A DNA stretch of 44,668 nucleotides from the NCBI GenBank assembly GCA_027488855.1, contig JAIYAV010000418.1:1-44668 (forward strand), read 5' to 3'. Below are positions 3,301 through 39,674 of this stretch, one piece after another (position 1 is the stretch's first letter; each line of letters starts with the position of its first letter). The notes below the pieces were generated by a model that saw only the letters and a program-made list of their open reading frames with translations, was not told the origin of the DNA and made no database searches. The position numbers and the translations under genes were made by a program. The stretch comes from Saprospiraceae bacterium. GTDB taxonomy: Bacteria; Bacteroidota; Bacteroidia; Chitinophagales; Saprospiraceae.

Positions 3301-4860
3301 ATGAATAAAAAGAAAATACTGCTAATTTCAAGAAACTTGGATGCCCCACAGGACGGGCTCGAATTGGCTGATGCACAAAATCTGATCGACTCGTTTGTAA
3401 ATTATTGGTACACAATCCATTTTAAAGAATGGAGCCACTACATTGACTTCATCTCTGCGTCAATTCATAAAAAAAACAAGCACACGTCCAATTTGGCGGG
3501 TCGTATAAAAGAGGTAATGAAAGAGAAGAATCCAATATTATTCATCGAAGATTTGTTTTTAAAGTTTACGTCTGCAAGAGCAAACTATTCAATCAAGTCC
3601 AAACAGAAAGCCTTAATCGATGAATTAAAAAACTTGATTGACCTTACTAAGAAATACCTAGTGTACAAGCAAGCAATAGATTCTCCTATTGACTTCCAAC
3701 GTCTACTCACCAAAAGGCTCAAACGACGCAATGACAACGGGCTATTTCAGCAAACAGTTAACGATTTTGAACTTATCCTCAATGCAGACGAAATAAGATC
3801 GACAATTATGATCTCGTTGGAGCGATGGTGGTTAGCACACCAAACCTATTACCATCAATACACTGAGCAGATAAGTGATAGTGCAGTTTTCCAGCGCAAT
3901 CTGGAGGCTTATGAAGCATTTCATCAACTGGTAATATTACGCAACTATTTAGAACACCTCAATCGGAACCAGCGAACTATAGAAGTAGACTATTACAAAT
4001 TGCAGGAAAAAGCCAATTATATTTTAGCTGAAATACATGATAATGCTAACCCTATTCTCAAACTTTACAGCCAATTGATTAAAACGCTTAGAGAGTATCA
4101 AGATCATCTGCACGACAACTACTATTTATTCAAGACCCTATATACCCAATTTGGTGCCCAACTTGCACCTGTTGACCAGCTCGTATTGGCCAAAACAGCT
4201 ATCAACTATCTGCAACGTCCCCACTATAAACATGGAGGTAAGACCTGGTTGAAAGAAATATTTAAATGGATGCAATATTTGAACAGCGAAAATCTTTATG
4301 AGTTTGAAGGAACTATTTCCGACGATGAGTATCTCAATTTTTCATTAGTTGCCATTGCCCTAGATGATTTCAAGGCGCTTGAGCAGTTTGAGGCGAAATA
4401 TGCACCAATACTTGATTCTGATTACAAAGATCACGTACTGGGTCTGAGCAAGGTTTATTATCTTCAAAAAAAACAAAACAACAGAGAGGCCCGTGAGATT
4501 TTGGATAAATGGTTTCCTTTAAACTCCAGTGAAGAGCTAAAATATAATTTACGGGCAAAAGTACTACGGGTGATGCTAAGCTTGGAAAATGGAGAAACAG
4601 AACTCAGCGATGTTTTGTACAATTTATTTAAATTTTGCAAGAGGCTAATTGAAAAACAAATAATGACTGAAAATGCCGTTCAACCCTATTTCCAATTTCA
4701 CGAGGTGGTTAAACAACTCAACAAGTACTACCATCCAAATCCCAATAAAAAAGAGGCCAACAAAAAACAAGCTCTTGAAAAGCTAAATATTTTGATGGCT
4801 TCAAATGACGAGGTTGCTCATCGACTATGGTTAGAGCAAAAGATAGCTGGCCTAGAATAG
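3301..4860 (+). CDS. Uncharacterised 519-residue helical protein
   Basis: Starts MNKKKILLISRN with no signal peptide or membrane segment, so it is probably cytoplasmic. The sequence is almost entirely predicted alpha-helix, rich in Leu, Lys, Glu, Tyr and Asn, with TPR-like helical spacing in the C-terminal half (around ALEQFEAKYAPIL and AREILDKWFPL). I do not recognise a catalytic motif or a named family. It precedes and converges with the 88-residue gene, and a hairpin at 4859-4893 separates them. It could be a helical-repeat scaffold related to the CHAT/TPR neighbour; that is inference from position only. Confidence 0.75.
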   Translation: MNKKKILLISRNLDAPQDGLELADAQNLIDSFVNYWYTIHFKEWSHYIDFISASIHKKNKHTSNLAGRIKEVMKEKNPILFIEDLFLKFTSARANYSIKSKQKALIDELKNLIDLTKKYLVYKQAIDSPIDFQRLLTKRLKRRNDNGLFQQTVNDFELILNADEIRSTIMISLERWWLAHQTYYHQYTEQISDSAVFQRNLEAYEAFHQLVILRNYLEHLNRNQRTIEVDYYKLQEKANYILAEIHDNANPILKLYSQLIKTLREYQDHLHDNYYLFKTLYTQFGAQLAPVDQLVLAKTAINYLQRPHYKHGGKTWLKEIFKWMQYLNSENLYEFEGTISDDEYLNFSLVAIALDDFKALEQFEAKYAPILDSDYKDHVLGLSKVYYLQKKQNNREAREILDKWFPLNSSEELKYNLRAKVLRVMLSLENGETELSDVLYNLFKFCKRLIEKQIMTENAVQPYFQFHEVVKQLNKYYHPNPNKKEANKKQALEKLNILMASNDEVAHRLWLEQKIAGLE

Positions 4861-38792: not shown

Positions 38793-38824
38793 TTGGCTTT
38801 TTACACTACACTGTTGTATCTTTG
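38793..38824 (+). promoter_or_regulatory. Promoter of the tRNA-Val transcript
   Basis: TTG (38793-38795), a 21-nt spacer and TATCTTTG (38817-38824) precede the tRNA by 38 nt. Slightly long spacer but exact -10. Confidence 0.6.
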
Positions 38825-38862: not shown

Positions 38863-38937
38863 GGGTAATTAGCTCAGTTGGTTTAGAGCGCTGCTTTGAC
38901 AGAGCAGAGGTCACAGGTTCGAGTCCTGTATTACCCA
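38863..38937 (+). tRNA. tRNA-Val (anticodon GAC)
   Basis: Acceptor GGGTAAT/ATTACCC with discriminator A, D arm AGCTCAGTTGGTTTAGAGC, anticodon stem CTGCT/AGCAG with loop TTGACAG (GAC), and T arm ACAGGTTCGAGTCCTGT. CCA is not encoded. 75 nt. Confidence 0.95.
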
Positions 38938-38942
38938 CGAGA

Positions 38943-39549
38943 ATGGGTGTGAGCTTCGTTGCCGGTGGCTCGAAGCGTGTGGTTCTCAAACTTCGTTTGA
39001 GAAGTGTGGGTGTGAGTGTGTTGGGGCACTGCGCCGGGGATTGGAAGGAAGCTCAGATTTGGGTTTTCAGGTTTAAAGAACTAAAAAGACTAGACGTGTT
39101 TGATTTTGAAAAATTGGAAGTGTATCAGGAAATGCGGGGGGTGAACTTGAAAGTTTTAAAACACCTGTTTACGCAGAAGTCGCTTGATCCATATATCCAG
39201 GACCAATTCAAACGCGCCAGCTTGAGTGCCCTGTTGAACCTGGCCGAAGGAACTGGCCGCATGACGAGCCCCGACAAAAAGAAATTTTACATCACGGCGC
39301 GTTCATCGGTTTTTGAATGTGTCGCGATCTTACAGATTATGCATGATACTGACCTCGTGGAAAAAAGCTTCTACGATGATTTATACGCTGGCTTTGAAAA
39401 GGTATCCAGAATGCTGCTGGGAATGATTCGTTCTCTGGAGTAAACTGGTGGTTTTCAAATTCAGAGAATGGGCAACCACCGAGGGTTGCCCCAACACACC
39501 CACACTCATCAAACGAAGTTTGATGATCACACTCACACTCACACACTAT
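38943..39549. mobile_element. IVS-like element: inverted repeats enclosing a four-helix-bundle gene
   Basis: The left arm (38987-39028) AAACTTCGTTTGA...GTGTGGGTGTG...TTGGGGCA is complementary to the right arm (39487-39522) with a single 6-nt length difference. Outer GTGTGAG/CTCACAC repeats continue the stem. The only gene inside is a four-helix-bundle (S23/IVP-type) ORF. In 23S rRNA intervening sequences such proteins are encoded in the loop of a similar stem; here the element fills the spacer between two tRNA genes. Mobility is inference. Confidence 0.6.
39096..39443 (+). CDS. Four-helix-bundle protein (23S rRNA IVS/S23 family, TIGR02436)
   Basis: 115 residues from a GTG start at 39096, which gives the family N-terminus (M)FDFEKLEVYQEMRGVN. 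The frame extends upstream to 38943, but that part crosses the inverted repeat and is not family-like. Family blocks: QFKRASLSALLNLAEGTGRM, DKKKFYITARSSVFECVAIL and FEKVSRMLLGMIRSLE. The fold is a small pentameric four-helix bundle; its biochemical role is unknown, though members are encoded in rRNA intervening sequences and a relative (Avd) serves diversity-generating retroelements. Confidence 0.85.
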   Translation: MFDFEKLEVYQEMRGVNLKVLKHLFTQKSLDPYIQDQFKRASLSALLNLAEGTGRMTSPDKKKFYITARSSVFECVAILQIMHDTDLVEKSFYDDLYAGFEKVSRMLLGMIRSLE

Positions 39550-39552
39550 TTT

Positions 39553-39626
39553 CGGGATGTGGCGCAGCCCGGTAGCGCACACGCCTGGGGGGCGTGGGGC
39601 CGCAGGTTCAAATCCTGTCATCCCGA
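39553..39626 (+). tRNA. tRNA-Pro (anticodon GGG)
   Basis: Acceptor CGGGATG/CATCCCG with discriminator A, D arm GGCGCAGCCCGGTAGCGC, anticodon stem CACGC/GCGTG with loop CTGGGGG (GGG), and T arm GCAGGTTCAAATCCTGT. CCA is not encoded. 74 nt. Confidence 0.95.
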
Positions 39627-39636
39627 CTTGATTTTC

Positions 39637-39674
39637 AAGGAGTTACGAATTTAGATTTCGTAACTCCTTTTTTT
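39637..39674 (+). terminator. Terminator after tRNA-Pro
   Basis: AAGGAGTTACGAA and TTCGTAACTCCTT form a perfect 13-bp stem with a 7-nt loop, followed by a T-run. It probably ends the tRNA-Val/tRNA-Pro transcript. Confidence 0.92.

Follow-up and report, generated by a model that had tools for sequence, protein, structure and literature searches.

Why a gene of the S23/IVP family should stand alone between two tRNA genes is the question raised by the stretch of Saprospiraceae DNA analyzed here, 44,668 nucleotides (nt) long and hereafter called the window. S23/IVP proteins have been known from intervening sequences (IVSs) of 23S rRNA since the 1990s, and we know of no function for them to date. 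The earlier note on this DNA, made from the letters alone, placed an S23/IVP open reading frame (ORF) with a GTG start between tRNA-Val and tRNA-Pro, with no other gene beside it, and this setting is borne out by the tRNA search, by Rfam and by a match to PF05635 (Table 1). The protein belongs to this Pfam family (23S_rRNA_IVP; E 2.3e-20, 73.2 bits against a curated cut-off of 33.8) and also matches TIGR02436, the four helix bundle protein model. The tabulated GTG is the conserved start; the ATG at 38943 in the ORF list gives a longer frame that crosses the 5' arm. The element measures some 0.5-0.7 kb in the window and has this one gene, there being no other frame of at least 100 residues between the two tRNA genes. 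No enzyme gene for cutting or copying DNA was recognized within it, no copy of a tRNA 3' end was seen by eye ahead of tRNA-Pro, and Rfam returned no rRNA family match in the window.

Table 1. Features in and around the S23 element of the window (positions are those of the window).
Feature	Position	Strand	Basis
Promoter-like motif TTG-N-TAnnTTTG, TTG...TATCTTTG, 5' of tRNA-Val	38793..38824	+	motif scan
tRNA-Val (gac)	38863..38938	+	tRNA search; Rfam concurs
5' arm, GRGTKT-type repeats broken by two palindromes	38940..39014	+	repeat search, RNA folding
Palindrome CTTCG...CGAAG within 5' arm	38954..38975	+	by eye
Palindrome TTCTCAAACTTCGTTTGAGAA within 5' arm, inside repeat pair I1	38983..39003	+	by eye
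S23/IVP four-helix-bundle gene, 115 codons + stop, GTG start	39096..39443	+	profile matches; structure model
3' arm, complementary repeats up to tRNA-Pro	39495..39552	+	repeat search, RNA folding
Palindrome CATCAAACGAAGTTTGATG within 3' arm	39507..39525	+	by eye
tRNA-Pro (ggg)	39553..39627	+	tRNA search; Rfam concurs
Intrinsic-terminator-like hairpin + T tract, 3' of tRNA-Pro	39637..39669	+	terminator scan

The motif ahead of tRNA-Val is of a form that we take to be a Bacteroidota-type promoter and, together with the terminator-like hairpin behind tRNA-Pro, it suggests that the S23 gene is most likely carried on the tRNA transcript. Across 57 loci, TAnnTTTG occurs ahead of the first tRNA, no more than about 150 nt away, at 46 and between tRNA and ORF at five, both being raw counts over stretches of unequal length. 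The loose promoter motif is common in the window (18 occurrences on the forward strand and 14 on the reverse), and its fixed-spacing form is not above chance; terminator-like hairpins with a T tract number five in the stretch, against 1.3 expected.

The inverted arms of about 36-42 nt that had been described around the ORF were recovered as a pair of 38 nt, 87% complementary (38977-39014 with 39495-39532), which is overlapped by repeat pairs of 22 and 17 nt. RNA folding predicts 48 leader-trailer pairs, the outermost of which (38940-39552) adjoins both tRNAs, such that the ORF would lie in the loop of a stem made by the element's own ends. The predicted leader-trailer duplex reaches -107.2 kcal/mol, compared with -58.6 +/- 5.7 for shuffled sequences, none of 200 shuffles being as good, and the whole region folds with a z-score of -7.5 relative to 20 shuffles. 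The earlier proposal that folding of the precursor could bring the ends of the element together is therefore supported. Cutting would not amount to excision in the manner of an intron: neither tRNA is interrupted by the element, and the two would simply come apart from each other. The tandem GTGTGAG/CTCACAC units that had been reported form part of a degenerate 6-nt tandem repeat which reads GRGTKT in the left arm and its complement in the right, with small palindromes in between (by eye).

How far the arms characterize the element is a separate matter. A search of the window's own genome for further copies of the 5' arm, as the earlier note had advised, returned none except the 3' arm itself. 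Among 18 genomes of the family, the 24-nt arm repeat is present in ten and in nine of these lies away from the element, one of the nine being G004, a genome without the gene; one repeat site precedes an atpH-like gene (by eye). An arm pair without any gene stands between tRNA-Tyr and tRNA-Gly in G250. A reversed-sequence control for the repeat was uninformative, because the repeat read backwards is nearly itself. Since the repeat also occupies unrelated intergenic sites, the arms are not diagnostic of the element; they do pair here, but the notion that they are a feature of the element as such is weakened further by relatives that keep the gene without them. For example, the gene sits at Val-Pro without arms in G216, of another genus of the family, and at the ten Ser-ORF-Arg loci none of the five testable ones outperformed shuffled sequences, the other five having only 4-7 nt behind the gene. 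Among the 56 loci flanked by a tRNA on either side, arm pairing surpasses every one of 20 shuffles at 26 and fails to do so at 18, the flanks of the other 12 being too short for the comparison. When arms were swapped among 14 loci, the own trailer was best for seven of 14 leaders and the own leader for four of 14 trailers, a comparison confounded by arm length. Four-unit GRGTKT repeats were also observed between genes at G000 C136:11662, C270:22573 and C362:24323, and in L241, L242 and L260, and G032 contains 82 overlapping matches; these intergenic repeats often include small palindromes, and no S23 gene was seen alongside.

The protein itself is modeled with confidence (monomer, pLDDT 96), and the model superimposes closely on the S23 structures 2gsc (TM up to 0.93) and 2rld (TM 0.85). 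It shares the same four-helix fold with Avd of the diversity-generating retroelements (DGRs), alone (4dwl) or in the DGR complex (8ub7), at a TM of about 0.8 and Foldseek E-values of 0.06 and above; a sequence search against structures was significant for 2gsc and 2rld only, and Avd was absent from the matches. The protein is under purifying selection: dN/dS is 0.065 in the closest pair, two members of the genus, and 0.005-0.22 in the other computable pairs from five hand-picked sets, in which many pairs are saturated. Within the Ser-ORF-Arg clade (Chryseolinea and relatives), where arms were not found, computable pairs span 0.005-0.10. No relatives were found in a phage collection, and of 19 pattern matches among viral contigs none was confirmed. 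Plasmid relatives were likewise rejected, the only candidates being three cyanobacterial records of other S23 proteins, 31-33% identical.

S23 matches are present in 35 of 60 relatives, and the closest of them lie mostly beside tRNA genes. A profile built from 13 proteins and searched against 298 genomes of the order yielded 30 matches of at least 125 bits (in 26 of the 298 genomes), one truncated copy at 94 bits, and otherwise nothing above 84, which sets the window gene within a sharply separated subfamily of S23. At 29 of the first 34 subfamily loci, a tRNA gene on the same strand lies upstream within 466 nt; among the next 42 S23 loci, taken as a control, a single one has any tRNA within 1.5 kb, and Rfam, run on 20 of these controls, concurs with this scarcity. 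Loci were chosen by sequence similarity alone, regardless of context, and those from related species do not count as independent of one another. A broader profile was then run across one genome per species; the best 80 of 311 loci were kept and nine repeats dropped, which added 71 loci to give a pool of 105, or 103 after the removal of two duplicates; L171/G000 was rejected as a duplicate pair, the frame being too short for comparison. On rescoring by the first profile, scores of at least 125 bits are attained by 100 of the 105 pooled loci, against at most 84 for the 42 controls; the five at 95-107 bits have frames that are short, broken or truncated by fusion.

Within this pool, which includes those 71 from the best 80 of 311, a same-strand tRNA or tmRNA gene lies no more than 700 nt upstream or 500 nt downstream at 93 of 103 loci, compared with one of the 42 controls that has any such gene within 1.5 kb. 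ARAGORN placed tRNAs on both sides of 56, a tRNA or tmRNA only upstream of 27, a tRNA only downstream of seven, and neither at 13; Rfam added a tmRNA at three of the 13. At the remaining ten neither program found a tRNA or tmRNA, though one (L203) has a partial tRNA-Leu-like sequence at the contig edge (by eye), and at two (G184, L167) the contig extends less than 300 nt upstream. The subfamily as a whole is thereby tied to the ends of tRNA and tmRNA genes, beside which about nine in ten of its loci stand.

The sites themselves vary. Commonest are Ser(gct)-Pro(tgg), Val(gac)-Pro(ggg) and Ser(gct)-Arg(tct), with further examples at Ile-Ala (two loci), Pro-Pro, Leu, Glu, Arg, Lys, Trp, Tyr-Thr, Ala and tmRNA. 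A quick tree was built from 96 proteins, nine of the 105 having been left out for odd length; many of its forks are unresolved, and on it the upstream RNA changes at least 22 times. Within the window's genus the element is found at Val-Pro in G002 and G003, and tRNA-Val lies upstream of a fused frame in G001; as the element stays behind tRNA-Val throughout, the window copy looks resident and inherited in place. The fused frame (L036, around position 3515) runs from S23 into an unrelated long frame after some 72 residues, and may be a fusion or an assembly chimera. As to the mobility that the earlier note had allowed for, the family changes its tRNA site over evolution, but there is no sign that the copy at hand moves at present. 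It keeps to one site in its genus and is single in its own genome: no second subfamily gene was found there, and the other S23 match is only 28% identical.

Near-empty counterparts of the Val-Pro site, a check proposed in the same note, do exist. Of the top 30 tRNA-Val matches from 120 searched genomes of the family, four have the element, eight a near-empty spacer, two another small frame, and 16 no following tRNA-Pro. The eight near-empty spacers, all in relatives of other genera, measure 4, 5, 12, 15, 17, 46, 65 and 84 nt, and one of these genomes (G034) has the gene at Ser-Pro instead. No empty site was found within the genus; its sole gene-less genome, G004, was rejected as one, as the assembly lacks both tRNA-Val(gac) and tRNA-Pro(ggg). 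The different small frame in the Val-Pro spacers of L216 and L217 (G009, G745) looks by eye as if it encoded a membrane protein some 50 residues long.

Copies at several sites, with and without the gene, would be expected of a mobile element, and they are seen in Patescibacteria and in the Bacteroidota group that we call clade A, but not in the window's genome. Seven Patescibacteria proteins compared with one another are 70-85% identical and are encoded behind tRNA-Tyr, -Ser, -Arg, -Lys and -Trp, behind tmRNA, and behind an RNaseH_like gene, in front of tRNA-Val; a less similar copy (L170) likewise follows an RNaseH_like gene. At six of seven loci with an RNA gene upstream, the element starts at the annotated 3' end of that RNA, the exception being L180, where a part-tRNA-like stretch intervenes. 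With the element as query in seven of these genomes, hairpin copies of about 125 nt were found at the 3' ends of five tRNAs (Gly, Val, Met, Val and His), and S23 frames were absent from the 1.5 kb on either side. Gene-bearing and gene-less copies therefore both occupy the 3' ends of different tRNAs in Patescibacteria. Two more hairpins, at tRNA-Ile and tRNA-Lys, end at contig ends, and a gene may lie beyond; two others have no tRNA (L284, gene-less, and L281, at a contig start), and the remaining short matches look chance-like. A later survey found matches in nine of 379 genomes of the phylum, with three of four new loci of at least 125 bits beside tRNA-Pro and the other behind an RNaseH_like gene; four loci below 104 bits are without a tRNA. 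Three gene-bearing copies (L170, L186 and L341) thus have an RNaseH_like (PF04308) gene in the place of a tRNA before them, and the last bases of that gene resemble, by eye, the tRNA ends used at other sites. Identification of the gene upstream of three Patescibacteria copies as metK was rejected, the Pfam match being RNaseH_like PF04308.

In clade A, the leader begins at the 3' end of a tRNA or tmRNA in the 18 loci displayed. It consists of a hairpin, often with a GAGCGAGAGCGA core, usually followed by a T tract and then by repeats that offer the 5' strand a possible alternative partner. Sixteen leaders were aligned, 12 of them at an ARAGORN tRNA, and six of 12 pairs show changes in both strands with the pairing preserved; in a wider alignment of 20 rows three of six pairs show changes on both sides. 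A covariance model matched 16 of 16 clade A genomes, compared with none of eight others, the window's among them; as 15 of the 16 supplied rows of the model, the evidence lies in the extra copies only. These include two at the 3' end of tRNA-Pro, one gene-less (L316) and one with the gene (L325), four gene-less hairpins away from any tRNA gene in G239, and several others, with or without the gene, that lack an intact tRNA. Serial units occur in this clade, as do hairpins flanking the gene on both sides. Of 13 hairpins without an intact tRNA, five are preceded by a stretch that agrees with a tRNA 3' end in at least 15 of 20 positions, compared with four of 1500 random places, searched with the same sliding freedom and with tRNA genes excluded; nothing clear of this kind precedes the other eight. 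The five are L205, L313, L318, L164 and L320, matching at 15-19 of 20 positions.

Taken together, we favor the reading, with a probability of roughly 60%, that the S23 element of the window is a resident member of a family of small elements whose place is immediately behind tRNA and tmRNA genes. How its RNA would be cut by RNase III, how its protein would be expressed and how it would move we infer as follows. The gene would be transcribed from the promoter of the tRNA operon; the paired arms would form a double-stranded stem for RNase III, with RNase P and tRNA 3' processing to follow, and these cuts would free both tRNAs and the mRNA of the loop. The S23 protein, which probably forms a five-membered ring as do its solved relative and Avd, would bind the structured RNA of the element and help new copies to establish themselves at tRNA ends, possibly together with a reverse transcriptase or recombinase provided in trans. 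More tentatively, and at somewhat less than even odds, these may be a new class of mobile element, with S23 as its sole protein and the 3' ends of tRNAs and tmRNAs as its site. Its units would be a hairpin plus gene, gene-less hairpins moving with help in trans; the window's element would represent a Bacteroidota branch in which paired arms enclose the gene, 23S IVSs a side branch, and S23 the RNA-binding part of an Avd-related machine.

Other explanations fit some of the same observations. S23 might be a host gene, in no way selfish, that serves tRNA operons (for instance in maturation, storage or growth-rate control) and is made along with the tRNAs, in which case the arms would be spacer repeats. 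We think this unlikely: it accommodates the strong purifying selection in the arm-less Ser-ORF-Arg clade, the placement of the promoter motif before the first tRNA and rarely between tRNA and ORF, and the general intergenic occurrence of the arm repeat, but not the patchiness of the subfamily, which was found in a minority of the order's genomes and, at E 1e-26, in the window's own genome only among 395 of the phylum, nor relatives at different tRNAs, gene-less copies and near-empty sites. Chance, or an assembly artefact of draft genomes that happens to set a short ORF between two tRNAs, deserves next to no credence. Metagenome-assembled genomes do account for most of the 80 named records (the best 80 of 311), and the G001 copy joins an unrelated frame, but the same type of context recurs in the isolates Ohtaekwangia koreensis DSM 25262, at Ser-Arg and arm-less, Chryseolinea serpens DSM 24574, Dawidia soli and Agaribacillus aureus, at Ser-Pro and with arms, which refute an artefact for the family, and in G002, a genome of four contigs.

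A 23S rRNA IVS that escaped into tRNA operons, with RNase III cutting the stem, the spacer RNA decaying and the gene a passenger without any role in movement, is an account that we also hold to be unlikely, close as the resemblance is. In a Coxiella study, IVSs are described as elements of 16S and 23S rRNA genes that are cut by RNase III, and the Coxiella IVS as bearing a decaying S23 ORF with heptamer repeats ahead of it (PMC4990558). The 23S IVSs with an S23p/IVP ORF (Leptospira, Coxiella, Brucella, Xanthomonas) resemble the window element in having a sense ORF in a stable-RNA transcript, arms that form a stem, and short tandem repeats near, and in Coxiella before, the ORF (PMC4990558). The protein family is the same, the ORF lies in the loop of a long stem, and the stable-RNA operons concerned include the Ile-Ala spacer at two loci. 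The window element differs in its place between tRNA genes and outside the mature RNAs, and its ORF is under purifying selection and is not decaying, unlike that of Coxiella (PMC4990558). Moreover, the starting point of other subfamily members is the 3' end of a tRNA or tmRNA, gene-less copies of them exist, and in clade A and Patescibacteria a hairpin stands ahead of the ORF (in some of clade A also behind it) in place of arms around it. As the site that defines such sequences lies inside a 16S or 23S rRNA gene, and the window element was found elsewhere when this was tested, we do not class it as a 23S IVS, though it may work like one.

The reading of a small-element family behind tRNA and tmRNA genes also invites comparison with other systems. 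Tyrosine-integrase islands use the 3' ends of tRNA and tmRNA genes as their site, as the S23 elements do; the window element, unlike such tRNA-targeted integrative elements, spans about 0.6 kb, has S23 as its only frame of at least 100 residues, and shows, by eye, no duplicate of the tRNA 3' end before tRNA-Pro. Hairpins of the MITE and REP types are short, gene-less and non-autonomous copies, and the short gene-less copies described here similarly match the leading part of a gene-bearing copy; in contrast to MITE and REP hairpins, no transposase was recognized, S23 is the only gene, and the gene-less copies in Patescibacteria are mostly at tRNA 3' ends. In DGRs, Avd is part of an RNA-protein complex with the reverse transcriptase (8ub7); the window protein shares the fold of Avd, which was not among its sequence matches.

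We found no literature on S23 genes between tRNA genes, in a search outside which most subscription papers fell, and the findings point to a little-noticed element family at the ends of tRNA and tmRNA genes. The tRNA- and tmRNA-tied subfamily is a new setting for S23/IVP, and one that offers natural replicates, isolates, and gene-less copies as controls with which to ask whether an S23 protein binds hairpin RNA and aids its spread to new tRNA ends. If so, tRNA processing would have to cope with, or be used by, a small parasite of stable-RNA operons. Separately, Rfam matched a group II intron domain at L044:1433-1553 (G051), about 1.8 kb from two tandem S23 genes that lie behind a tmRNA.
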